Below are positions 2,082 through 13,985 of a stretch of DNA of 14,048 nt, piece after piece; position 1 is the first letter of the stretch, and every line of letters starts with the position of its first letter. Location: contig JAICHN010000086.1 in assembly GCA_025924845.1 (NCBI GenBank), forward strand, positions 1 through 14,048, read 5' to 3'. A program made the translations under genes and the position numbers. This stretch comes from Chloroflexota bacterium. GTDB taxonomy: Bacteria > Chloroflexota > UBA5177 > JANWHV01. The notes beneath the pieces are model-generated. The model saw only the letters and a list, made by a program, of their open reading frames with translations. It was not told the origin of the DNA and did not search any database.

Positions 2082-2398
2082 AGAACGCCCAAGGGTTCAA
2101 GCCGGGCCGCACGGCTGATGTTATCAGCCGGCATGCTCCACTTTGAGTGTCCTACCGCGCCACGCAAAGCGCAAGATTGCCCTTGAAACTTGCCACCCCT
2201 TCCTATACCCTGCCGGCCCGGCTACGCTTGCCATGCTACAATTTGTGGAGCATCTAAATATGATTCAGTCTGTCGGTCCCGGACAGAGCGGCTGCTTCCA
2301 TCGCCGCGGTCCGCCACGGAACTTCAGTGCGATCCGGTGTGGTACGAGCAGCGCCTACGGGACTGGCGGCAGCATGGGCTGAACGAGGGCGGGCTCCG

Positions 2399-2404
2399 AA
2401 AGGA
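2399..2404 (+). promoter_or_regulatory. Probable ribosome-binding site of the histidine kinase gene
   Basis: AAAGGA lies 10 nt before the GTG at 2415. It is of medium strength and slightly far, but it supports this start over the in-frame TTG at 2190. Confidence 0.45.
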
Positions 2405-2414
2405 CAGAAGCGCA

Positions 2415-4091
2415 GTGATCGGTGAGACCGGCTTTAGTACCCCTATCGCACTCGACCGCGGCGTATTTATGCGCCGGCTTATCGCCGGCCTCGGCCATCT
2501 CAACGAGGGCATCCTGGGCAGCGACGTGGCGGGCGCCTACGTGATGAACGTAGGTCTCTCGATGGGGGCGGCTATCGAGGCGGAGTACAAGCGGTACTGG
2601 GGGATCGATCGTTCCTTTACGGTGAGCGAATATGCTCACGTCATCATCGACCTCAAACAGAAGATCAACGGCAACTTCTCTCTGGTCTCCAAAGATGATG
2701 AAAAGGTGGTGGTGCGCACCACGTCGTGCCCGTTTGACGAGTTCGTGCGCCAATCGCCGTCGCTGTGCTTCATGACCAGCTCCGTATTCGGCGGCATCGC
2801 CGCGCGAAACTTCGGCTACGCCAAGACCGTGCTCCATAAGCGGATCGCCCTTGGTGACCCCGGCTGCTACGTCAGCGTCTATCTCAAACGAACGCCCGCG
2901 GCAGTGAAGGCGGTCGGTAAAGAGTATTTTCCGGACATCAACCGGGCCAGTCCCGACATTGCCGAGCAACTGCGCCTGATGGAGAGTATTCGTGACCTAA
3001 GGCGACAACTCGGCGAGACCAGCTCGCGTTGGGAGGAGATCGCCCATGCGGCGGCCGAGGCAATCCTTGTCGTCACGCCTGAAGGAAAGATCGTCTTCGC
3101 GAACGCGCGCTGGCGGGACATGCTCGGCGTCGAGGGCGCCGAGTTGGTCGGAGGGCCATTCTCTCGCATCGTACACCCTGAAGACCAGGCCGGAGTGCAT
3201 GACCTCCTGGAGACGGCACTGGCGGGCCGACGGGCGATCGGACACGAGTGCCGACTGCGCCACCGCGACACCAGTTGGCGCGATGCCGGCGTGAGCGCCG
3301 GTCCGGTTCGCGACGACGAACAGCATGTGGTGGGGGCTCTGGCCATCGTACGCGACGTGACCGAGGAGCGCGATACTCAACGCCTGAAGGATGCCCTGCT
3401 TTCTACCGCGACCCATGAACTGCGGACACCGGTGACGACGATCAAGGGTTTAACCCAGGTGCTCCTCCGCACCCTTGAAAAGGGCGGCAACGTTGACTCG
3501 GAGGAATTCGCCGCCCGGTTGCGGACGATTCAACACGAGGCGGATCGCCTGGCCTTGCTGGGTACCGAACTGTCCGATGCTGCCCGACTCCGCACGGGCA
3601 AGCTCGCGGCCAACCTGCAGCGGTTCGACTTGCGGGACATCGTGGAGGATGCCGTAGGTAGGGAACGTGAGTTGCTCGACGCCGGCTCAAGGCACCGCCT
3701 GGAAGTTTGCCGGCCAGCGGAGCCCGTGCCGGTGAAGGTTGAGCGGGCCCGGATCGAACGGGTTGTTACTAACCTGATCGAGAACGCGATTAAGTATTCG
3801 CCCGCGGGCGGCTCAATCACGATCGCCACCGATGCGACGGACTCAGCGGCCCGGGCCATCGTTACCGACCAGGGCATCGGCATTCCGGAGGCTGATCTCG
3901 CCAGGCTTGGCACACCATTCTTCCGAGGCTCGAACGCCTCGGCGCGCAACTTCAATGGCCTGGGCCTTGGCCTGCACCTTAGCAAGGCGATCGTCGAGGC
4001 CCATGGTGGTGAGTTGACTTTCAACAGCATCGAGGGCGCCGGGACAACGGTGATCGTTTCCTTGCCGCCGGCCAATACCGAAGGCCCGTAG
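2415..4091 (+). CDS. Soluble histidine kinase: MetOD1-like domain, PAS, HisKA, HATPase
   Basis: This is a cytoplasmic sensor kinase of about 558 residues with no membrane segment. Residues about 9-160 match the 'methanogen output domain 1' family, with the run YVMNVGLSMG, TSCPFDEF, SLCFMTSSVFGGIAARNFGYA and ALGDPGC. Three cysteines (about C105, C118, C151) sit in its most conserved motifs. A short helical linker leads to a PAS domain (about 205-325). The HisKA H-box is THELRTP with the phospho-accepting histidine at about 334. The ATPase has an N-box (NLIENAIKYSP, about 453), a G1 box (DQGIGIP, about 485) and a G2 box (NGLGLGL, about 514-520), so it looks catalytically intact. Its likely partner is the receiver encoded 3 nt downstream. 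I chose the GTG at 2415 because the conserved part begins just after it and AAAGGA precedes it. The kinase call is firm; the ligand is unknown. Confidence 0.9.
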   Translation: MIGETGFSTPIALDRGVFMRRLIAGLGHLNEGILGSDVAGAYVMNVGLSMGAAIEAEYKRYWGIDRSFTVSEYAHVIIDLKQKINGNFSLVSKDDEKVVVRTTSCPFDEFVRQSPSLCFMTSSVFGGIAARNFGYAKTVLHKRIALGDPGCYVSVYLKRTPAAVKAVGKEYFPDINRASPDIAEQLRLMESIRDLRRQLGETSSRWEEIAHAAAEAILVVTPEGKIVFANARWRDMLGVEGAELVGGPFSRIVHPEDQAGVHDLLETALAGRRAIGHECRLRHRDTSWRDAGVSAGPVRDDEQHVVGALAIVRDVTEERDTQRLKDALLSTATHELRTPVTTIKGLTQVLLRTLEKGGNVDSEEFAARLRTIQHEADRLALLGTELSDAARLRTGKLAANLQRFDLRDIVEDAVGRERELLDAGSRHRLEVCRPAEPVPVKVERARIERVVTNLIENAIKYSPAGGSITIATDATDSAARAIVTDQGIGIPEADLARLGTPFFRGSNASARNFNGLGLGLHLSKAIVEAHGGELTFNSIEGAGTTVIVSLPPANTEGP

Positions 4092-4094
4092 CCG

Positions 4095-4463
4095 GTGGCC
4101 GAGGATCAGACCATACTGATCGTGGATGATGATCGGGGCTTGCAGGAGACGCTGAAGGCGATCCTGGCAACGGCCGACTACAACGTGGTGGTGGCTGGAG
4201 ACGGCCTGGAGGCACTGGAAAAGGTCGGCGAGCATACGCCGCACCTCATTCTCCTTGACCTTGTGATGCCTCGCATGGACGGCTTCTCCTTCGTAGAGGA
4301 ACTGGAGCGCCGTGGGCTACGCTCCCTGCAGCCTATCCTCGCTCTTACCGCCGACGCCCGTGTCGAGGAGAAGGCGGCACGGTTGCGCGCCGACGCCTAC
4401 GTGGCAAAGCCGTTCGACATGGACGATCTCCTCGCCAAGGTGGCGCGGCTAATCGGGTGCTGA
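4095..4463 (+). CDS. Stand-alone response regulator receiver
   Basis: This 122-residue CheY-like protein starts with GTG and lies 3 nt after the kinase stop codon, so the two are almost surely co-transcribed and possibly translationally coupled. All receiver landmarks are present: the acidic pocket (ILIVDDD, D11-D13), the phospho-accepting aspartate D55 in LLDLVMPRMDG, the switch threonine T85 in ALTAD, and the conserved lysine K105 in AKPFD. There is no DNA-binding or enzymatic output domain, because the frame ends soon after the last receiver helix. It must therefore act through protein contact, as a phosphorelay intermediate or as an allosteric partner. Kinase plus single-domain receiver pairs are common in Chloroflexota. 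The target cannot be deduced. The paralogous membrane-protein cassette starts about 460 nt downstream on the same strand. Confidence 0.93.
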   Translation: MAEDQTILIVDDDRGLQETLKAILATADYNVVVAGDGLEALEKVGEHTPHLILLDLVMPRMDGFSFVEELERRGLRSLQPILALTADARVEEKAARLRADAYVAKPFDMDDLLAKVARLIGC

Positions 4464-4627: not shown

Positions 4628-4908
4628 GCTGTCCATGGGCAGCCATTGTATCGTATGCGGTTTTCCGGGATTGTAGCGATCCCGCGCGCTGCGGATGCAT
4701 GGCCGGTCTGCGACCCTCCGGTGATGGATACACCTCCTCAGTTCAAGGCTCGTGACAAATGCTCATGCGAGGCGCGGATCGTGAAGGGCTTAAGGGATTC
4801 AATCGGACTATGATGACTGGTGAGCACGAACTCGGCTTGCAAGCGGTGATCCGCATGGTTACATTGGACGCACTCGACTCGAACATCAAACCGTGGTTGC
4901 TCAGGGCA

Positions 4909-4919: not shown

Positions 4920-6551
4920 ATGGCCGAGTCGATACGCCTGGAGGGTCTCGCCCCTACCGAGGGCATCAGCCCCGGCGGAAGCCGCCGCATCGTACTCACC
5001 GTGACCAACGCGGGCGAGATCGTAGACCAGTATATGCTCAGCGTGACCGGGTTGGATGAAACGTGGTACACGTTGGAACCGGTCGCCGTGTCGCTCTTTC
5101 CGGGAGCGAACGGGCGGGCCGAACTGACCCTGCATCCGCCCGCGGGCAAGGAAGGGCAGGCCGGTGTCTATCCCTTCAGCGTACACGCAACGTCCAGCAG
5201 CGACGCCGCGATCCATACCACGGCCGAGTGCGAGCTGCGGATCAGCACGGTCGGCAAGCCCGGCGTGGATGTCCGACCGCTGCGGGCCGAAGGACGCCAG
5301 GCGACCTTTCGCGTGGCCTGGAAAAACCCCAGCAACGGCCCGGTAAATATAGAGTTGATGGCGCGCGACGCCGAGGCCGCCCTTAACATGTTCATTAATC
5401 CCATCGGACCGGTACCTGTACCGGCGGGCGAGGAACGCACCGTGGAAGTGACGGTGCGGCCCCGCCACCGAGAGACAGTGGGTGGACCGCACCTCTATGA
5501 ACTGGAGTTCCTCGGCCTCAAGCCGGGCACCGATGACTTGCTGGAACCGGGACTCAAACGGTTCGCCCACTATACCTACGTGCCGCCGATTCGGACTCTC
5601 TCCTTGCCGAGGTGGCTGCGCCGTCTGCCAATATGGGCCCTGCTCGCGTTGCTGCTGTTGCTTATCGCGGTGCTCTTCTTGGGCGGCCGTAAGGTAGGCA
5701 ACGCGGTAGCGCACTCCACGCGGGCCACTTCAACCCGCACCGCAACGGCCAGTCCCACCGTGCCCAAGCCGACGGCCACTCTGGTGCCCACGGCGGTGCC
5801 CACCCAGGTACCGCCGCCCAAAGTCGGCAGTTTCGGTGTCCAGGTCGATCCAAAGGGCAACGCCGCCCTCGCCTGGGCGGTGCAAGGAGCGAAGCAAGTG
5901 ACCCTTGACGGAAAGCGGGTTGAGTCCAGCGGCAATCTTCCGATCAAGGTTATTAAGCCGCGAACCTACGTATTGAGCGCCTCGGACGAGGCCGGCACCG
6001 TATCGCGATTCCTCGAGGTGGTGCCGCCTCCAATCAAGAAGCTCTCGGTAGCCCAACCGGACCAGCGCCTGGATCTGCCAAGCATCCGGCAATTCGCCAT
6101 CCACGCCGATCCTCGTTCGGGCGCCCTTACCGTGACTTGGCAGACGCAGGGTTCCGATCAGCGCACCCTGAACAATAAAAAGATCGGGGCCAAAGGCAGC
6201 GCCGCCGTGCCCGTAAAGGGCCCACGCCGCTATGTACTTAGAGCAATGAATGGGGCAGGGGCAACCACCGCCATTCTGATGCTCCCCGCCGCGCCGGCGC
6301 CGCGGGCGCGCACCGTCGTCCTCAAACTCCCTTCCATACCGCTCTTTACCCTCCGCCATCCCCATGAAGGAACGCCGTATTCCCTGGTCTGGCGCACCAC
6401 CAACGCCGTGTCCGTCACCTTGAACGGAGTGGCCGTCTCCACCTCCGGCAGTCAAGTGTTGCATCCGCCTCTTTCCAGCAAACGGTACATTCTGCTGGTC
6501 ACCAATCAGAACGGCCAGGTGCGCGGACAGGTAGAGGTGGTGGTCAAATGA
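4920..6551 (+). CDS. Cassette gene A: single-pass membrane protein, two beta-sandwich domains plus three Ig-like repeats
   Basis: The protein has 543 residues and no signal peptide. Residues 1-105 form a NEW3/CARDB-like beta-sandwich with landmarks shared by all four cassette proteins: VDQY, ETWY, SLFPG, HPP and AG-YPF. Residues about 110-225 form a second sandwich (GRQATFRVAWKN, RPRHRETVG). Then comes a basic juxtamembrane motif, LSLPRWLRRLP, and one membrane helix (about 238-256). By the positive-inside rule the N-terminal domains are cytosolic and the rest is outside. The outer part has a short Thr/Pro linker and three Ig-like repeats starting near residues 298, 386 and 470, each with a pattern like F...L.W...V.L.G..V..SG...Y.L.A.N..G. 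Its last codons overlap gene B (ATGA). Similar actinobacterial proteins are named 'hydrolytic protein' (COG1470-like), but I see no hydrolase motif. A tether, adhesin or receptor role is inferred. Confidence 0.88.
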   Translation: MAESIRLEGLAPTEGISPGGSRRIVLTVTNAGEIVDQYMLSVTGLDETWYTLEPVAVSLFPGANGRAELTLHPPAGKEGQAGVYPFSVHATSSSDAAIHTTAECELRISTVGKPGVDVRPLRAEGRQATFRVAWKNPSNGPVNIELMARDAEAALNMFINPIGPVPVPAGEERTVEVTVRPRHRETVGGPHLYELEFLGLKPGTDDLLEPGLKRFAHYTYVPPIRTLSLPRWLRRLPIWALLALLLLLIAVLFLGGRKVGNAVAHSTRATSTRTATASPTVPKPTATLVPTAVPTQVPPPKVGSFGVQVDPKGNAALAWAVQGAKQVTLDGKRVESSGNLPIKVIKPRTYVLSASDEAGTVSRFLEVVPPPIKKLSVAQPDQRLDLPSIRQFAIHADPRSGALTVTWQTQGSDQRTLNNKKIGAKGSAAVPVKGPRRYVLRAMNGAGATTAILMLPAAPAPRARTVVLKLPSIPLFTLRHPHEGTPYSLVWRTTNAVSVTLNGVAVSTSGSQVLHPPLSSKRYILLVTNQNGQVRGQVEVVVK

Positions 6552-9500
6552 GTAAGGATTTGACGCTCCAGCTCAGCCCGGCTCAGGCGACCATCGCTCC
6601 GGGCGGCCAGGTAGACATCACCCTCACCGTAACCAATGCAAGCACCATAGTCGATCGCTACCGCGTGAGCGTGACAGAGGTGCCGGAGGACTGGTATGAG
6701 CAGGAGGCCAAGCCGCTCTCCCTTTTCCCCGGCGAGAAAAAGACAGCCCGGATCACCCTCCACCCTCCCGAAGGTATAGCGACCACCGCCGGCTTGCTCC
6801 CCATCACGGTGACCGCCGTGAGCGACGCCGACGATCAAGTGCAAACCTCGGCGGAATTTGCCCTCACTATTCAGGCAACCGGAGCCTTGCAGTTCGATCT
6901 GACGCCCAAACGGGTGACGGGGCGAGATGCACGCTACCAGGCCCGCCTGCGAAACCAATCCAATGCCCTGGCTGTGTTGTCTCTAGCGGTGCGAGACGCC
7001 GAAGACGGATTGCGGTTCAGTCCGGACGTCGAAGGTTCGATGGCGCTGACTCCCGGTGAACAACGCACCGTTGCCTACGATGTGATTCCCAAGCGACGAG
7101 AGACGATCGGGGAACCGCATCCGTATGAGATTGAGATGTGGGTGGTAGACCAGGGAAAGACACCGGAAGATCCCCCTAACCCTGCTCTGCTGCGGCGCGT
7201 GACCTTTACCTATACGCCCAGACTGAGCGCCCTCTCACTTCCCCGCTGGATGCGCCGTCTGCCACGCTGGGCCCTCCTGCTCCTGCTTCTTCTCCTCCTC
7301 CTGCTTGTCGCGTTGGCGGGCGGGCGAACGGCGGCATCGGAACATGCCGCGAAACCGACCATCGTCCCTACCCGGCCCGTCCTCCCCACGGCGCCGCCCA
7401 CCCTCCCCCGGCCCACGGTGGTGTTGCCGCCCGCCCCAACCGTCAAGACATTCGCTGCCGCGGCCCTCCCCGACGGCTCAGTCAAAGTGACCTGGGCGGC
7501 AAGCGACGGGGCTAAAGTGCGCCTGGGCGACCAAGCGGTGGACCAAGCAGGCCAACAGACCTTCCGACTTACCAAAGCCCGTACCCTCGTGTTGAGCGCG
7601 GCGAACGCGGGCGGCACGGTATCGCGCATGCTGGTGCTTCAGCCGCCCCAAACTCAGGCGAGCGGCGACCCGGTAGGGGCAGCGCAATATCTGCCGGTAG
7701 TCAAGCAGTTGACTCAAACCCTGGATCCGAAAACCGGCGCCCCCGTGCTCACCTGGCAGGTAAGCTCGGCCTTGAGTGTAATGATCGATGGGCGAAAGGT
7801 TGCCGCCTCGGGCCGGAGGGCGGTGCGCGCCGGTCCCGCCACCTATCACCTCACCGCTACCAATAAATACGGTACTGTGGTATCGAGTTTGAAGGTGACA
7901 AACCGCGCGGCAGCCGGCGCCGGCAAGATAACCCAGGTAGCGCTGCGTCCTCCAACCATAAAGAGCTTCACCTTCCAAGCATCATCTGGACCGAAGGGAA
8001 GCAGCCTGCAGTGGCAAACCACCGGCGCCCATCTGGTGCTGATCAATGGGAAACGAGTCGGGCTCTCCGGCGTGTTGGCGATCGGCACGCCGCGCACGGG
8101 CCAGACCTACGAACTTCTGGCCGATAACGGCTACCTGAACAGTCGGTCCACCTTGCACGTGACGACGACGGGAGGCAAGGGCGCCTCCGGCAAATTCGTC
8201 GTTGCCTTGCCGCGCATACAATCCTTCGCGGTGAGCGGCAGCGCCAACGGCAAGTTCCTCTCCTGGCATGTGGTGGGCGCGGTCAAGACCAGCCTGGGCG
8301 GGAAGGTGGTCGGACTGAGCGGCCACGCGCCCGCCCCGCCCGGATCCAAGCTGGTCGAACTCGAAGCAACCAACGATGCCGGCACCGTTCACGCGATTGT
8401 GGTGGTAGCCGGGCCAAGTCCAACGCGGACGAAAACGCCCACCGCGACGCGGACGCGTACCGCCGTTCCTCGCCATACCCATACGCGCATCCCCACCCGT
8501 GTACCTACCCACACTCACACCCCCACCGCCGTGCGAACTCACGTGCCTCGGCCTACGCATACGCCGACCGCCGTGCGTGTGGCCACGCATTTGCCCACTG
8601 TCGTCCGCGCTCATACGCATACGCCGACGCCGGTCCGCGCCCTTACCCATACACCAGTCCCCGCCCGCACCCATACTCCTACGCCACGACCGGCCACCCA
8701 CGTCCCGGCACACACCCATACCGTCACGCCCACCCAGACGCCAACCGCTACGCCGACTACACCGCACCATGTGGTCGTGGTGACGCATGTCCCAACCCAT
8801 GTGCCCACTGCCGTGCCCACGCATACGTCAACCGCCCAGCCACAAAATCCCACGCATACCGCCACGCCGCGCAAGCCGACACGCACTGCTACGCCGCGTA
8901 AACCCACGCGCACTCCGACCAAGACGCGTCATACCGCCACGCCGACGCGCACCCCCAAGCCGCATACACCAACCAGGACCGCGACCAAAACGGCAACGCC
9001 TTCGTTCACGCGAACCAGAACAGCTACTCCTACGTTTACGGCCATTCCTACCGCGACAAGCACCAGCACCAACACGCCGACGGCGACAGACACAGCCACG
9101 GCGATCCCGACAGATACGGCCACCCCCATCCCGCCTTCAATCCTGGTGGCGCCGAATCCGCTGATTCTTCAGCGGTCGCAAACCGGCATATCCACTCTGG
9201 AGGTCGTCAATCCACCTATAGCGGGTACGCTCGTGATCACCAATACCGGTCCGGGCCCACTTGCCGGCCCTGTTTCGGTATCGCTCACCACGAACGGCAG
9301 TTCCCAGTTCTCCCTGGTAGCCGGCTCGAATCCCTGCTCCGCCATAAGCGCGGCGAATCCGCTGCCTGCCGGCACGAGTTGCGATACGGGTGTCGTATTT
9401 AAGGGGTGCTACGATGGAGCGCCGCCGCCTGCCACCCTGAACGTCATCGCGCCGAACGCCGCGAACGGCACGCAGACCGTTCCGATCTTGTTCGCCAAGG

Positions 9501-9889
9501 GCGTGGGCCAGTGCGTGCCTAGCATCTCTGTGTCACCCTCCGAGGTCGACTTGGTCGCTTGCCCGAATAACTCGGACGGCCAGTCCGACTGCACCCTGCC
9601 CCCCAACCCGGTGGACGTCACGATTTCATCGGTTGGAAGCGGTACGGTGCAGATCAGCTCGATAAAGGCGAACGGTTTTGCCACTCGGGGCGGCGGTACG
9701 TTCACCGTTTCGCCCGGCGCGGGCTGCACATCGATCCCACCCGGCGGCTCCTGTACGGTGAGCGTCGGTTACAAGTTTGGCACGGTGCCAAGCATCAAAC
9801 AGTCGGCGACTCTGCTAATCGACAGCAACGCAGTCGAGGGTGAGCAGTCGGTTACCCTGATCTGGCCGGGCTTCACTACTATTTTTTAG
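6548..9889 (+). CDS. Cassette gene B: large membrane-anchored stalk protein with Ig-like repeats and Cys-rich tip
   Basis: The protein has 1113 residues and is translationally coupled to gene A through a 4-nt ATGA overlap. It has the same two N-terminal sandwiches (VDRY, EDWY, SLFPG, LHPPEG; then TPKRVTGRDARY and IPKRRETIG). The juxtamembrane motif LSLPRWMRRLPRW is nearly identical to that of gene A, and an almost pure leucine helix follows (about 241-258). Outside there is a Pro/Thr linker, four Ig-like repeats starting near 297, 382, 466 and 554, a low-complexity Thr/Pro/His/Arg stalk (about 623-862), and a C-terminal pair of ASH-like ('choice-of-anchor D') sandwiches (about 866-1113) with motifs LPAGTSCDTGVVF and IPPGGSCTVSVGYKF. 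All eight cysteines lie between about C930 and C1069, which fits disulfides in an exported domain. There is no LPXTG or other anchor signal at the C-terminus. It is probably the longest outward-reaching member of the set. Confidence 0.88.
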   Translation: MSKDLTLQLSPAQATIAPGGQVDITLTVTNASTIVDRYRVSVTEVPEDWYEQEAKPLSLFPGEKKTARITLHPPEGIATTAGLLPITVTAVSDADDQVQTSAEFALTIQATGALQFDLTPKRVTGRDARYQARLRNQSNALAVLSLAVRDAEDGLRFSPDVEGSMALTPGEQRTVAYDVIPKRRETIGEPHPYEIEMWVVDQGKTPEDPPNPALLRRVTFTYTPRLSALSLPRWMRRLPRWALLLLLLLLLLLVALAGGRTAASEHAAKPTIVPTRPVLPTAPPTLPRPTVVLPPAPTVKTFAAAALPDGSVKVTWAASDGAKVRLGDQAVDQAGQQTFRLTKARTLVLSAANAGGTVSRMLVLQPPQTQASGDPVGAAQYLPVVKQLTQTLDPKTGAPVLTWQVSSALSVMIDGRKVAASGRRAVRAGPATYHLTATNKYGTVVSSLKVTNRAAAGAGKITQVALRPPTIKSFTFQASSGPKGSSLQWQTTGAHLVLINGKRVGLSGVLAIGTPRTGQTYELLADNGYLNSRSTLHVTTTGGKGASGKFVVALPRIQSFAVSGSANGKFLSWHVVGAVKTSLGGKVVGLSGHAPAPPGSKLVELEATNDAGTVHAIVVVAGPSPTRTKTPTATRTRTAVPRHTHTRIPTRVPTHTHTPTAVRTHVPRPTHTPTAVRVATHLPTVVRAHTHTPTPVRALTHTPVPARTHTPTPRPATHVPAHTHTVTPTQTPTATPTTPHHVVVVTHVPTHVPTAVPTHTSTAQPQNPTHTATPRKPTRTATPRKPTRTPTKTRHTATPTRTPKPHTPTRTATKTATPSFTRTRTATPTFTAIPTATSTSTNTPTATDTATAIPTDTATPIPPSILVAPNPLILQRSQTGISTLEVVNPPIAGTLVITNTGPGPLAGPVSVSLTTNGSSQFSLVAGSNPCSAISAANPLPAGTSCDTGVVFKGCYDGAPPPATLNVIAPNAANGTQTVPILFAKGVGQCVPSISVSPSEVDLVACPNNSDGQSDCTLPPNPVDVTISSVGSGTVQISSIKANGFATRGGGTFTVSPGAGCTSIPPGGSCTVSVGYKFGTVPSIKQSATLLIDSNAVEGEQSVTLIWPGFTTIF
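8414..9130 (+). repeat. In-frame low-complexity Thr/Pro/His/Arg stalk of gene B
   Basis: About 240 codons are built from short units with no fixed period. There are three zones: first His-rich (THTHTPTAV, AHTHTPTPV, RTHTPTP), then Lys/Arg-rich (TATPRKPTRTATPRKPTRT, which contains a direct repeat), then nearly uncharged (TSTSTNTPTATDTA). At DNA level it reads as CATAC, ACGCC and CCGAC words, with many synonymous changes that keep the peptide pattern. Such stalks in Chloroflexota secreted proteins are likely extended and possibly O-glycosylated (inference). Confidence 0.9.
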
Positions 9890-9918
9890 AACGCACGGGA
9901 GAGAATCGAGCACGATAC

Positions 9919-10806
9919 ATGGCTAGCGGATTAAACGTGGACGTTCAGCCGACCAGCTTGACGGTCGGCCCGAATGCACCTCCCTTGACCCTCATGATCA
10001 CCGTACACAACGGCACGGCCGTGGTGGATCAGTTCAAGCCGGTTATCGAGGAGTTGCCGGAAGAGTGGTACACCATGCCCGCCGGGCCGGTGTCCTTGTT
10101 CCCTGGCGCCCGAGAAATCATTCGCGTCACCGTGCAGCCCCCCGGCGGGACGACCGCGGGGGACTATCCCCTCCGGGTCGTGGTCACCTCCACCGCCGAT
10201 CCGGGCCTGCGCTCGGACGCGCAGGCGGTCGTACATGTCACCGCGAACAACCAGTTCGACCTCGACATGACGCCGAAGAAGGTGATTGGCCGGAAGGGTC
10301 GATACACCCTCATGGTGCGCAATACGGGCAACGCCGGACTCACTTTGAGTCTGGAGGCCACGGACGACGAGGAGCGCTGCCGCTATCATTTTGAGACCGA
10401 GGAAGTAGTGCTGGAACCGGGACGAAGGCAGTCCGTGCGACTCACGGTCCGCCCCCAGCGATCAGGGTGGGTGGGCCAACGAGCGGAATATGGATTCCAG
10501 GTTATTGCCAAGCCTGCCAAGGGCCAGACCAAGACGATTCAGGGACGGATAGTCCATACGCCGCGCCTGCGTACCTGGCGGCCCGTGATCAGTGTTTTCA
10601 AGTTTTGGGTTGTTGTGGCCATAATCGCCGCTTTTGTGGCCTCGCAGGGCGGCATTTCCGGGGTCCAGCAAAAGGCGCCGGGGTGGAAGGCCGACGTGAC
10701 CAGGGCAACCTGTGATAGGATGAATCTTTTCTGTGCAACGCCGACCGTCGTTCCCAATGTGATTAAGCATAAAGTTGTCAAGGTGCATCCGGGTGCCTCC
10801 GGCTAA
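9919..10806 (+). CDS. Cassette gene C: short-tailed paralogue with CX6C motif
   Basis: The protein has 295 residues and starts 29 nt after gene B. The ribosome-binding site is weak (GGGAGAG about 15 nt upstream, or GAG about 8 nt). The first sandwich shows VVDQF, EEWYTM, SLFPG, QPPGG and AGDYPL. The second shows MTPKKVIGRKGRYTLMVRN, GNAGLTL, CRYHFE, LEPGRR and TVRPQRS. The membrane helix (about 223-241) is preceded by RLRTWRP, so the N-terminal part is predicted cytosolic. The outer tail is only about 50 residues and contains CDRMNLFCA (C265 and C272). The same motif, with the same spacing, occurs in gene D, so C and D form one subfamily and A and B another. With no Ig-like repeats outside, C may be an inner partner or assembly subunit of the long proteins. 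The function is unknown. Confidence 0.85.
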   Translation: MASGLNVDVQPTSLTVGPNAPPLTLMITVHNGTAVVDQFKPVIEELPEEWYTMPAGPVSLFPGAREIIRVTVQPPGGTTAGDYPLRVVVTSTADPGLRSDAQAVVHVTANNQFDLDMTPKKVIGRKGRYTLMVRNTGNAGLTLSLEATDDEERCRYHFETEEVVLEPGRRQSVRLTVRPQRSGWVGQRAEYGFQVIAKPAKGQTKTIQGRIVHTPRLRTWRPVISVFKFWVVVAIIAAFVASQGGISGVQQKAPGWKADVTRATCDRMNLFCATPTVVPNVIKHKVVKVHPGASG

Positions 10807-10972
10807 AGGCGGGTGCAAGGCGGCATGACTTATCATTGTTCACAGATCACGCCGGCAGGTTGGAGCGCGTCGTTTTTTTTTGGTAGGGGTGGCCGCGGCA
10901 ACTACAGTAGTATGTATGGACCATGATCAGGACCAACGGAAAGCTTGTTGGGGCAGGTAGAGGGGTAGGACA
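10807..10972. other. C-D intergenic region with T9 run and weak promoter-like boxes
   Basis: The 166-nt gap is the largest inside the cassette. It contains nine consecutive T at 10873-10881, exceptional in this GC-rich sequence. The preceding bases give only a poor stem (ACGC with GCGT and a long loop), so a terminator is doubtful. Directly after it, TTGGTA (10880-10885) and TACAGT (10903-10908) stand 17 nt apart and could be a weak promoter for gene D. Confidence 0.35.
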
Positions 10973-12037
10973 ATGGCGGATTCGATAAAAGTTTCCCTGA
11001 ATCCCGATCGGATCGTGGTCAATCAGGGCGGTGCGACCGTTGACTGCGAAGTGATCATTCAGAATATGGGCACCACGGTAGACCAGTACGCCGTGGAACT
11101 CGATCAACTGCCTTCGACCTGGTATAGCCTTTCCAATGTAGCCGTCGCCTTATTTCCCCAGGACAAAGAAACCGCCACGCTCTCTATCCATCCGCCACAA
11201 GGCAGCGTGACCAAGGCCGGCACCTATCCCTTCACCGTAACTGCTCTCTCGCGGGCTGATCCCTCACAAACCAGCCGCGCCGAAGGCGTACTTCAGGTCG
11301 GCGCGGTCACCTCGTTCGAGGTTCAGATCACGCCGACCAAGATGACGGGACGACGCGGTAAATACGCCTTGACCTTGAAAAACGGCGGCAACGCGGATAT
11401 CCAGGTCGAACTAACGGCGGAGGACTCCGAGGACGGCTGTCGCTTCAGCTTCAGTCCGAAAGAGGTGACCCTTGGGCCGGGACAGAAGGCTACCGTTCAC
11501 CTAAAAGTGAAGCCGCGCCGCTCGTCCATTGCCGGGGCGCGGAAGTATTTCGACTTCCAGGTGAAGGCCACGCCGAGCGCCGGCCCCACCAAGATGGTCG
11601 CTGCCCAGCTCATCCACAAGCCGTTCTTCCTGACCTGGCGCCCAATTCGCCGGCTCATCTACTTCCTGATCGTGCTCGGCATCATCGCCTTCGCGGCGTC
11701 CTGGGTCCGCGCCAATCAGAGTTCGCTTTCCAGCGCCAATGCCTGTAGTCGCTTTCACCTCTTCTGCGCGAAATCGAATGCCCTGCCGACGCCGATGGGC
11801 CACGTCGAGGGTGGTAAGCCCAAATTTATTGGCGCCTTTCTAGAATTCCACAAACACGCCAAATCGCTGGTCGGTAAGCCCCTCGAAAATGAAAGCACCT
11901 CCGGTCGGGCCGCTACGCAGTTCACCAGTACCGGCATGCTCCTCTTTGATCGGCACGACGGAGTGACCTATCTGATCCGCTCCTCGGATTCCACCGTTTG
12001 GGAATATTACAAGGGGAAAACACTGCAGGTGCGCTAG
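10973..12037 (+). CDS. Cassette gene D: paralogue with CX6C motif and small exported module
   Basis: The protein has 354 residues. AGGGG 7 nt upstream of the ATG is the ribosome-binding site. The first sandwich shows TTVDQY, STWYSL, ALFPQ (Q where the others have G), HPPQG and AGTYPF. The second shows ITPTKMTGRRGKYALTLKN, GGNADIQV, CRFSFSP, LGPGQKATV and VKPRRSS. The helix (about 228-244) follows LTWRPIRR, again predicting a cytosolic N-terminus. The tail has CSRFHLFCA (C258 and C265), matching gene C, then about 85 residues with FLEFHKHAKSLVGKPLENE, ATQFTSTGMLLFDR and SSDSTVWEYYKG. That part recalls the FLEYW..GG..FGYPLTEE..QYFER modules on Chloroflexota surface proteins and hydrolases; the match is by eye and weak. 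It is the last gene before a strong terminator. Confidence 0.85.
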   Translation: MADSIKVSLNPDRIVVNQGGATVDCEVIIQNMGTTVDQYAVELDQLPSTWYSLSNVAVALFPQDKETATLSIHPPQGSVTKAGTYPFTVTALSRADPSQTSRAEGVLQVGAVTSFEVQITPTKMTGRRGKYALTLKNGGNADIQVELTAEDSEDGCRFSFSPKEVTLGPGQKATVHLKVKPRRSSIAGARKYFDFQVKATPSAGPTKMVAAQLIHKPFFLTWRPIRRLIYFLIVLGIIAFAASWVRANQSSLSSANACSRFHLFCAKSNALPTPMGHVEGGKPKFIGAFLEFHKHAKSLVGKPLENESTSGRAATQFTSTGMLLFDRHDGVTYLIRSSDSTVWEYYKGKTLQVR

Positions 12038-12295: not shown

Positions 12296-12571
12296 ATGGC
12301 GAAGCTGACACGGGGCAGTTTCCTGAAGCAGGCGTCTGCCGGCGCGGTGACCGTCGGGGCCTTCGCGGCCCTGCCCGGTATGGCCGCGGGCGCCCACGCG
12401 GCGCCCAAAACGCGCACGACGGTGGAACAAACCGCGGCATCGCAGCACGGGCCCCAGGTGGCGCGGGTAAAGGACATTACCGGCGGTGAGATCTCGCTGC
12501 TGGTCGGCACTCGTGAAATCACCCTGCATAACCCCGAACTGGTGAGGCAACTGGTCAGGGCCGCCCGCTAA
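12296..12571 (+). CDS. Small exported protein with degenerate Tat-type leader
   Basis: The protein has 91 residues. AAAGGAG (12283-12289) lies 6 nt before the ATG, an ideal ribosome-binding site. The N-terminus is MAKLTRGSFLKQ, then a hydrophobic Ala/Gly/Val stretch, then AHA-AP, a likely signal-peptidase site near residue 39. The pattern is that of a Tat leader (S/T-R-R-x-F-L-K), but the second arginine is glycine (GGC; one base from the arginine codon CGC). The mature part is about 53 residues, with GEISLLVGTREITLHNPELVRQL at its end. I recognise this as the type of short 'twin-arginine signal domain-containing protein' common in Chloroflexota; its function is unknown. The gene comes just before a DUF4331 gene, 49 nt away, and probably shares its transcript. 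Its stop codon lies in the loop of a hairpin. Confidence 0.82.
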   Translation: MAKLTRGSFLKQASAGAVTVGAFAALPGMAAGAHAAPKTRTTVEQTAASQHGPQVARVKDITGGEISLLVGTREITLHNPELVRQLVRAAR

Positions 12572-12579
12572 AGCGGGCG
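12562..12579 (+). promoter_or_regulatory. Hairpin holding the stop codon of the Tat-leader gene in its loop
   Basis: CGCCCGC (12562-12568) and GCGGGCG (12573-12579) form a perfect 7-bp stem whose tetraloop is TAAA, including the TAA stop codon. No T-run follows, so it is probably not a terminator. It could influence transcript stability or coupling to the DUF4331 gene 42 nt further on. Confidence 0.5.
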
Positions 12580-12606
12580 CGCACCGATCTAATGTCGGCA
12601 TGCCGC

Positions 12607-12613
12607 GGAAAGG
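12607..12613 (+). promoter_or_regulatory. Ribosome-binding site of the DUF4331 gene
   Basis: GGAAAGG lies 7 nt upstream of the ATG at 12621 and decides against the in-frame ATG at 12600, which would place this site inside the gene. Confidence 0.6.
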
Positions 12614-12620
12614 CAATCTT

Positions 12621-13985
12621 ATGTCATCGCATCGAGAAGCCCCGGAAATCTCCAAGGATCCCGTAGCGGACAGTACCGATCTCTACGCGTTCGTCAGTCC
12701 CGATCAGCCCGGCACCGTCACTCTGATCAGCAACTATATCCCTCTGGAAGCGCCGGACGGCGGCCCGAACTTCTACGAGTTCGGCGATGACGTGCTCTAC
12801 GAGATCCACATCGATAACAATGGGGATAACGTGGCGGAGATCACCTACCAGTTTCTCTTTCAAACCCAGGTACGCAACCCCAATACCTTCCTCTACAACA
12901 CCGGTCCAATCACGTCGCTGGACAGTCCCAATTGGAACATCCGCCAGACCTATAGCGTGAACAAAGTGTGGCACGGCAAGGTTATCCCCCTGGGAAGCGG
13001 TTTGACCTGTCCCCCGTGCAACATCGGCCCCCGCTCCACCCCGAACTATGCTGCGCTGGCCCAGGCGGCGGTCCATAAGCTGACTACCGGCGAGAAAGTG
13101 TTCGCCGGACAGCGCCTGGAAGGGTTCTACATCGATCTCGGCGCGATCTTCGATCTTGGCGACCTCCGTCCCTTCCAGCAACTCCACCTGATCCCCAGCC
13201 CGGCCGCTTTAGGGGTGGACGCCACCAAGTCGTCAAACGTCCATTCCATCGCCATTCAGATTGACAAGTCCCAACTCACCAACAACGGCTCCTATGCGAC
13301 AAGCGTGACCGACCCCAATTCGACCATCGGCGTCTGGTGTACGGCGAGCCGGCAAAAGGTCCACCTGCGCGGCGAAACAGACGGCGCCTCAACGGCAGTT
13401 GGCCCGTGGGTACAGGTCTCCCGCCTTGGGCAGCCTCTGATCAACGAAGTGATCATTCCACGCGGCCGGAAGGACTACTGGAATACGACCGAACCGAAGG
13501 ACGACGCCCAGTTTGTCCAGTATTATGAGCATCCCGAACTGGCCGGCCTGCTCCCCGTACTCTATCCCAAGGTATTCCCGCACCTGGCAGCCTATAAAGC
13601 GCCACGCGCCGACCTCGCGGCGATTCTCTTGACCGGGGTGCCTGCCGGGATCGTCCCTGGATTCCAGACCCTGACCGGGAAGAGCCCGGCCGATCTGCTC
13701 CGCTTGAACATGGCGATCCCGCCCGCCGCGAAACCGAGCTCGGGCGGAGTGCTGGGTGGCGACCTGGCAGGTTACCCGAACGGTCGGCGCGTCTTCGACG
13801 ACGTGTTCACCATCGAATTGCGCGCCGTCGCCGGCGTGACCATTCCCCTGGTGGACAAGTCATTTACCCCGGACGCGGCGGCGTCCAAGGTATCCGACAA
13901 CCTTACACCGGGCGCCGATCGCTACATCAGCAGCTTCCCCTATTTGGGAACGCCCAAGGACGGCTTCAGTACGCCCAGTTCCTAA
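12621..13985 (+). CDS. DUF4331 family protein
   Basis: The protein has 454 residues and starts MSSHREAPEISKDPVADSTD, the hallmark N-terminus of DUF4331 (SHREAP, then D-TDLYAF). Further matches are FYEFGDDVLYEIHIDNNGD near the N-terminal third, and YPNGRRVFDDVFTIELRAV from about residue 385, followed by the conserved SFPYLGTP-DG end. The length is normal for the family and no truncation is seen. Many proteobacterial members carry a signal peptide; this one starts directly at the SHREAP motif and has none, nor any membrane helix. The biochemical function is unknown. The small Tat-leader gene just upstream, probably on the same transcript, raises the possibility that the two are partners. The family call is very safe; any role would be a guess. 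Confidence 0.95.
   Translation: MSSHREAPEISKDPVADSTDLYAFVSPDQPGTVTLISNYIPLEAPDGGPNFYEFGDDVLYEIHIDNNGDNVAEITYQFLFQTQVRNPNTFLYNTGPITSLDSPNWNIRQTYSVNKVWHGKVIPLGSGLTCPPCNIGPRSTPNYAALAQAAVHKLTTGEKVFAGQRLEGFYIDLGAIFDLGDLRPFQQLHLIPSPAALGVDATKSSNVHSIAIQIDKSQLTNNGSYATSVTDPNSTIGVWCTASRQKVHLRGETDGASTAVGPWVQVSRLGQPLINEVIIPRGRKDYWNTTEPKDDAQFVQYYEHPELAGLLPVLYPKVFPHLAAYKAPRADLAAILLTGVPAGIVPGFQTLTGKSPADLLRLNMAIPPAAKPSSGGVLGGDLAGYPNGRRVFDDVFTIELRAVAGVTIPLVDKSFTPDAAASKVSDNLTPGADRYISSFPYLGTPKDGFSTPSS

Follow-up and report, generated by a model that had tools for sequence, protein, structure and literature searches.

A stretch of 14,048 nucleotides from a Chloroflexota bacterium (contig JAICHN010000086.1, analysed at its full length and referred to here as the window) contains four consecutive genes, A to D, whose products almost certainly represent, in Chloroflexota, the Sco4256-type family: bitopic proteins associated with contractile injection systems (CIS). 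The set is a variant of a known CIS-linked family and not an unknown system. With modest confidence, we favor the reading that these proteins dock a cytoplasmic CIS at the cell's own membrane and pass on a firing signal. A wider proposal is offered tentatively: that the Sco4256 family may not be cargo of cytoplasmic CIS but the membrane-borne half of a device, controlled by phosphorylation, that docks and triggers them, that in Chloroflexota it may fill the tail-fibre slot and replace the membrane protein CisA, and that the window may hold a kinase-free, four-protein version of that device.

Four tandem proteins with a common inner module

The four open reading frames (ORFs) lie head to tail on the + strand in the ORF listing of the window, with the start of B overlapping the stop of A by 4 bp, and with gaps of 29 bases between B and C and 166 bases between C and D. 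Their features, including transmembrane (TM) segments and immunoglobulin (Ig)-like repeats, are as follows.

4920..6551, + strand: gene A, 543 amino acids, ATG start; module, TM helix, linker and three Ig-like repeats
4920..5579, + strand: A inner module, two beta-sandwiches, residues 1-220 (four-way alignment, AlphaFold2 model, hhalign)
5625..5681, + strand: A single TM segment, residues 236-254 (hydrophobicity; model helix 238-254)
5820..6539, + strand: A outer part, Ig-like repeats 301-367, 388-454 and 472-540 (AlphaFold2 model)
6548..9889, + strand: gene B, 1113 amino acids; module, TM segment, four Ig-like repeats, stalk and Cys-containing tip (sequence only)
7268..7324, + strand: B single TM segment, residues 241-259 (hydrophobicity)
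7433..8425, + strand: B four Ig-like repeats, residues 296-626 (internal and A/B alignments; boundaries by eye)
8426..9133, + strand: B Thr/Pro/His-rich stalk, 236 amino acids with 81 T, 42 P and 22 H (composition)
9134..9886, + strand: B tip, 251 amino acids, 8 Cys, with a HYDIN/ASH-like stretch at 1025-1093 (PF22544 at E 0.0041, under cut-off)
9919..10806, + strand: gene C, 295 amino acids; module (PF10633 and PF22544 over cut-off), TM segment and short CX6C tail (read from the sequence by itself)
10585..10641, + strand: C single TM segment, residues 223-241
10973..12037, + strand: gene D, 354 amino acids; module (PF10633 and PF22544 over cut-off), TM segment, CX6C and small C-terminal domain
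11654..11710, + strand: D single TM segment, residues 228-246 (hydrophobicity; model helix 223-252)
11804..12034, + strand: D outer domain, residues 278-354, pattern F..F......LVG.P.ENE......Q.T..G.L.FD

Gene A has an alternative GTG start at position 4893, which would lengthen its product by 9 amino acids, and its Ig-like repeats match Pfam PF06832 at E 7.8e-5, under the family cut-off. The CX6C motif falls at residues 265-272 in C and 258-265 in D.

Judged by sequence comparison, the N-terminal halves of the four proteins are paralogous beyond doubt. BLASTP, run on all gene pairs but A/C and B/C (four of six), aligned A with B at 37% over 549 columns (E 3e-84), C with D at 35% (E 9e-64), B with D at 34% (E 2e-35) and A with D at 32% (E 1e-30). 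AlphaFold2 models were made for two of the four proteins: that of D (mean predicted local distance difference test score, pLDDT, 86) displays two sandwiches with strands between residues 5 and 215, a helix at 223-252 and a helix-plus-strands domain at 287-353, while that of A (mean pLDDT 77) displays two sandwiches and a helix at 238-254, then three strand-rich repeats after a linker modelled with low confidence. In structure comparisons both models resemble, among others, the ASH domains of HYDIN and Cep192 and chaperones of the FimC/YadV type, in alignments whose rows barely probe the A and D tails. A search of solved structures with a D profile yielded three sequences at E 1 or below, namely two HYDIN entries (both E 0.2) and chain TMH4C4. 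The outer tail of D gave no confident family or solved structure (best E 1.2 against PDB and 0.011 against Pfam) and no trustworthy lectin or toxin match in either database.

An initial reading of this DNA, made from the sequence alone, had posited a common inner module of two beta-sandwiches followed by one helix, and the alignments, the hydrophobicity profiles and the A and D models bear that description out. Residues of the N-terminal motifs that it quoted are found among 35 invariant columns of the four-way alignment, and its tail types were recovered as well (three Ig-like repeats in A; four, plus a stalk and an 8-Cys tip, in B; CX6C in C; CX6C and a further domain in D). Its view that each protein is differently built after the helix stands insofar as the tails differ, but the tails of A and B are related, in that the three repeats of A align with the first three of B.

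Exactly one hydrophobic segment is present in each of A to D, and none is N-terminal, which would place the sandwiches inside the cell and the tails outside. No signal peptide was evident in any of the four, every 19-mer that begins within residues 1-30 having a Kyte-Doolittle average of at most 1.02; export as a pilus, S-layer or secreted surface protein was considered and rejected for want of such a peptide.

Membership in the Sco4256-type family

When compared by hhalign with 12 Streptomyces relatives, the four window modules align across both sandwiches and the start of the TM segment (99.8%, E 3e-28). These relatives, which include PGB- and RICIN-tailed proteins, were used in place of the Streptomyces coelicolor Sco4256-4258 sequences, and were equated with Sco4256 on the basis of their architecture, their tail types, their annotation as 'hydrolase' (SCO4256 being annotated as a 'putative hydrolytic protein') and the CIS linkage of one of them. 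A tblastn search of S. clavuligerus with D gave a match at E 4e-16 that lies inside a CIS locus.

The sequence-only reading had claimed that no described system has this composition, but the family has been described twice, by Casu 2023 (PMC10066040) and by Vladimirov 2023 (PMC10020575). In the text of the former, Sco4256-4258 are presented as three CIS 'effectors' with alike N-termini, one TM segment and different C-termini, and at least one homologue is reported in 47 of 94 CIS-bearing Streptomyces strains. According to the text of the latter, 90% of 105 Streptomyces IId extracellular CIS (eCIS) include a close relative of Sco4256, and additional relatives occur in other Actinobacteria, in filamentous Cyanobacteria and in Chloroflexi, rarely outside eCIS regions; all homologues are said there to share a chaperone-like first domain (pilus chaperones by HHpred), followed by a second domain that is a single TM helix. 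SCO4256 is also listed, with one TM segment, in a table of the S. coelicolor membrane glycoproteome, which we read as indicating that part of the protein lies outside.

The S. coelicolor and window sets are alike in that both comprise consecutive paralogues with a similar N-terminus, one TM segment and different C-termini. They are unlike in that the window tails consist of Ig repeats, a stalk with a Cys tip and the D domain, whereas the Streptomyces relatives carry RICIN or PGB tails, and in that the window holds four genes with no visible CIS gene on the contig. A literature search, outside of which lay subscription papers, preprints and supplements, found no paper joining CIS with COG1470 or with the term 'hydrolytic protein'.

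Linkage to CIS loci in 400 genomes

The survey of the module covered an even sample of 400 genomes from the phylum to which a Dehalococcoidia genome (G001) belongs, a phylum that we take to be Chloroflexota. The module was found in 67 genomes, a lower bound because at most five candidates were scored per genome, and the CIS sheath (PF17482) in 85; both were present in 58, the module only in 9, the sheath only in 27 and neither in 306 (Fisher p 5e-39; this and the other Fisher p-values ignore the kinship of the genomes). In 27 of the 58 genomes the two share a contig, with the nearest pair always within 18 kb. Three rows of the search profile itself came from CIS loci (two from L006, one from L007); a profile built only from window rows, applied to the fetched ORFs only, found all 108 module ORFs at E <= 1e-3, and at E <= 1e-10 it retained 66 genomes, 58 of them with a sheath (p 7e-40).

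The 107 module places that were fetched yielded those 108 ORFs in 85 runs, a run being defined here as same-strand module genes with gaps below 600 bp. Three further ORFs that match both the module and Tail_P2_I (L070/G211, L067/G155 and L117/G243) were left out of the count, while at least four that remain in it (G218, G194, G090 and G200:C5) have N- and C-terminal hydrophobic segments and end 4-5 amino acids later; these, and a similar one in G091, look like another kind of protein. A TM segment adjoins the end of the module in 98 of the 108 ORFs. Eleven runs hold two to six copies, with runs of six in G168 and G342.

A CIS gene lies in the fetched flank of 46 of the 85 runs, and 30 runs (29 genomes) stand directly behind a Tail_P2_I or DUF4159 gene, on the same strand and within 2.5 kb; six of these overlap the stop codon of that gene by 4 bases. 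This position, which follows the baseplate genes and in which other systems encode a tail fibre or CisA, is termed the slot below. The genomes G083 and G055, which are among the nearest whole-genome relatives of the window, are both of the slot kind. By homology, the organism from which the window derives very probably possesses a working CIS.

Kinase and FHA domains in module and baseplate proteins

Many relatives of A to D are fused to signalling domains. Pfam recognizes Pkinase in four and FHA in seven of the nine module relatives scanned; hidden Markov models (HMMs) of our own, which for these and for Tail_P2_I and other families were built from few rows and were confirmed by Pfam for some matches, assign a Ser/Thr kinase to 39 of the 108 module ORFs and FHA to 56. 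Altogether 60 module proteins, from 35 of the 67 genomes, carry a kinase, FHA or both; in two of them a short FHA match lies elsewhere than before the module, and in 52 a TM segment adjoins the module. A protein from the CIS locus of Deinococcus aquaticus pDATS01, whose gene adjoins sheath, baseplate and VgrG genes, resembles A to D in having the same module beside a TM segment and Ig-like repeats (by eye), and differs from them in its N-terminal kinase (9-271) and FHA (333-410), with the module starting at 422.

FHA was also found on 17 of 33 Tail_P2_I ORFs and on five DUF4159 ORFs, and Pfam confirmed an N-terminal FHA in both Tail_P2_I proteins submitted to it (L058:5504-6586 and L060:13235-14293, minus strand). 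Such baseplate FHA domains occur on 20 of 23 contigs with kinase- or FHA-bearing modules versus 2 of 11 contigs with modules lacking both (p 1.8e-4). By analogy, the pairing of kinase and FHA on module proteins with FHA on the baseplate suggests a contact controlled by phosphothreonine. Between Tail_P2_I and the six-gene run of G342 lies a methyltransferase (L058:3900-5504, minus strand; Pfam PKMT_2nd and MethyTransf_Reg), and a similar-looking ORF is present in G168 and G331.

In the type VI secretion system (T6SS), a contractile machine is controlled by a membrane kinase and an FHA protein through the PpkA/Fha1 threonine phosphorylation pathway. The kinase- and FHA-bearing relatives resemble that arrangement, unlike A to D; to our knowledge, neither the module nor Ig tails form part of it.

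The fusions of kinase and FHA to the module, and of FHA to Tail_P2_I, are new here, having not been found in the open-access literature searched, and neither was the mechanism that they suggest. Word counts of the main texts of PMC10066040, PMC10020575, PMC12237407 and PMC12998442 gave zero for both 'kinase' and 'FHA'; the main text of PMC8213781 gave zero for 'FHA' and three for 'kinase' (histidine kinase, regulator activators and a reference title).

Close relatives and tandem sets

The nearest named relative of D is P0007, from a Chloroflexota bacterium (69%). Twelve of 16 A homologues cover at least 98% of A, and 27 of 33 D homologues (D itself excluded) cover at least 91% of D. Homologues of A and D seemingly share contigs, of 19,171 and 51,038 bases, and these equal contig sizes suggest that A and D travel together.

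In G083, a CIS operon (Pvc16_N, sheath, tubes, CIS_tube/LysM, VgrG-like, Baseplate_J, Tail_P2_I and DUF4159, with no gp25 gene identified) is followed after 23 bases by tandem module proteins of 620, 687 and 369 amino acids, which are respectively of the Ig type, of the Ig type with a Thr/Pro-rich stalk (by eye) and D-tailed. G055 has a similar operon that includes an AAA gene and ends in one D homologue, and encodes on a different contig a second relative of 661 amino acids with another tail; of the seven genomes in its class, only G055 itself matched the module. In G171, an Ig-type copy precedes a D-tailed copy on a 5,940-base contig with no CIS gene, and a sheath is present elsewhere in the genome. 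Of the 67 module genomes, these are the three in which D-type tails occur, and no kinase or FHA domain was found in the module proteins of any of the three.

The sequence-only reading had asked whether order and tail types persist among tandem relatives. As to order, the D-tailed copy stands last in all three tandem sets that have one (the window, G083 and G171). As to pairing, the A- and D-type tails stay with their modules in close relatives, with two exceptions, P0032 and P0033, which align to D in the module only (64% of D). In a quick tree, for which support is given only as the Shimodaira-Hasegawa-like approximate likelihood ratio test (SH-aLRT), A-type modules group with B (11 rows, SH-aLRT 99), and G055 joins the D-type rows (13 rows, SH-aLRT 90); P0032 nonetheless falls in the D group, and the D-tailed copies of G083 and G171 fall outside it, within a larger set (19 rows, SH-aLRT 92). 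The tails of farther relatives include Calx-beta (Pfam), a propeller-like match under cut-off, and beta-helix-like and LamG-like forms (by eye).

Comparison with CisA

As described in the paper on CisA (Sco4242 of S. coelicolor), that protein is bitopic, its gene follows those of the baseplate, its N-terminus lies inside and is for the most part unstructured, and it is thought to mediate contact of the CIS with the membrane. A to D are likewise bitopic, and the slot of their relatives likewise lies behind baseplate genes. They differ from CisA-like proteins, which match a zinc ribbon in three of three cases and an F5/8-like domain in two of three, with no module domain among their Pfam matches; neither a zinc-ribbon nor an F5/8 family was among the Pfam matches of A to D at E <= 0.1, and membership of A to D in the CisA family was rejected on that ground. 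Two CisA-like proteins of the same phylum (G133:C113:3236-4534 and G233:C172:15189-16499) display zinc ribbons, a hydrophobic segment and an F5/8-like domain.

A CisA-like profile of three rows, one of which (from S. clavuligerus) was taken as CisA by position and architecture, matched 22 genomes, 13 of them at E <= 1e-12 (12 with the module); the nine weaker matches were dropped. At that threshold CisA-like proteins occur in none of the 29 slot genomes versus 12 of the 38 other module genomes (p 7e-4), a distribution that is likewise new here. The text of a study of the Roseiflexus CIS reports no close cisA homologue there.

Neighboring genes in the window

A is immediately preceded, on its own strand, by a histidine kinase (2190-4091; MetOD1, PAS) and a single-domain response regulator (4095-4463), which could control the array. 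Downstream (12296-13985), a small ORF that has no Pfam match and whose N-terminus looks Tat-like by eye precedes a DUF4331 protein (E 1.2e-141); positions 3-1709 encode a membrane protein whose ORF is open-ended and which matches YfhO weakly (E 0.016). The Pfam matches of the nine main window ORFs, to which the search was confined, gave no sign of phage or plasmid context, and an Rfam search gave 0 matches.

Docking, cargo and other explanations

In the docking reading, the envelope would be held or sensed by the outer tails, namely the Ig rods, the stalk with its tip and the D domain; the helix would span the membrane; and, within the cell, the paired sandwiches would touch the baseplate end of the particle. 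A resident membrane protein encoded in the slot might in this way bring the particle to the membrane and report envelope damage. In many relatives the contact would be controlled by phosphorylation, through kinase and FHA on the membrane protein and FHA on Tail_P2_I; the proteins of the window, G083, G055 and G171 have neither domain, and contact would be direct there.

Several observations weigh against that reading. None of A to D has a kinase or FHA domain among its Pfam matches, and no CIS gene is present on the 14,048-base contig, so that the window is linked to CIS by homology. For 39 of the 85 runs in relatives, the fetched sequence lacks a CIS gene, nine of the 67 module genomes have no detected sheath, and 74 of the runs are single genes. 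Eight of the 60 kinase- or FHA-bearing proteins have no TM segment by the module, some at contig ends and others as whole ORFs of 617-698 amino acids in long runs. In L006:3629-5395 and L007:649-2421, directly behind baseplate-end genes, an Ig-like repeat lies between two modules that precede the TM segment and a 29-residue tail, so that such repeats are not always outside. The slot genome G248, among the weaker matches dropped above, has a CisA-like match of E 9e-6 at the looser threshold of E <= 1e-5; S. clavuligerus has CisA-like and Sco4256-type genes in one locus, so that the two are not exclusive there; and the text of the CisA paper names Cis11 as the predicted partner of CisA and does not mention any Sco4256 protein. 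To these are added the S. coelicolor phenotypes, which favor the published view of Sco4256-4258 as injected cargo, that is, tube-loaded toxic effectors that target the envelope after firing and whose tails are toxin or lectin domains. The strongest fact for cargo is that about 85% of tubes are empty in the triple mutant versus about 97% filled in the wild type (PMC10066040); the same text, in which the proteins were named CIS-associated effectors, reports that the mutant no longer undergoes nisin-induced death and that the proteins are toxic in Escherichia coli, while PMC10020575 reports Sco4256 in purified particles and assigns to roughly one homologue in three a third domain that resembles lectins or toxins. 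We nonetheless consider cargo rather unlikely, and lean somewhat toward docking and sensing in its place. The kinase and FHA domains on 60 of 108 module ORFs, in 35 of 67 genomes, correspond to the architecture of resident receptors; the TM segment adjoins the module in 98 of those ORFs, and B extends to 1113 amino acids with a stalk; and the Pfam matches of A to D and of nine relatives include no toxin family, although no systematic toxin scan of the tails was made. Both readings could be true if the proteins are needed for loading.

The sequence-only reading had instead pictured one multi-subunit envelope apparatus, in which A to D would stand side by side through their inner modules as a single hetero-oligomer with outer parts of graded length, an arrangement that overlaps with docking. 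The ordered sets seen in the window and in G083 and G171 agree with it, as do the six-copy runs of G168 and G342 and the tendency of tail type to follow module clade among close relatives in the tree, and an order-keeping set does exist; the predominance of single-gene runs, with two or more copies in only 11 of the 85, and the varying tails of farther relatives speak against it, and we judge it unlikely. Least probable, in our estimate, is that these are surface or wall proteins that have left the CIS locus for another purpose, for example under the upstream histidine kinase and response regulator. The directly upstream, same-strand position of that pair, the lack of a CIS gene on the contig and the nine module genomes with no detected sheath are consistent with such a departure, but the copies in G055 and G083 lie in CIS operons and a sheath is present in 58 of the 67 module genomes.

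Implications

How a cytoplasmic CIS finds the membrane and is told to fire has one answer in Streptomyces, in the form of CisA. For Chloroflexota, a concrete answer would lie in membrane proteins that bear kinase and FHA domains and whose genes directly follow those of the baseplate, together with an FHA-bearing baseplate protein; that same anatomy makes it questionable whether members of the Sco4256 family should be labelled 'effectors'.

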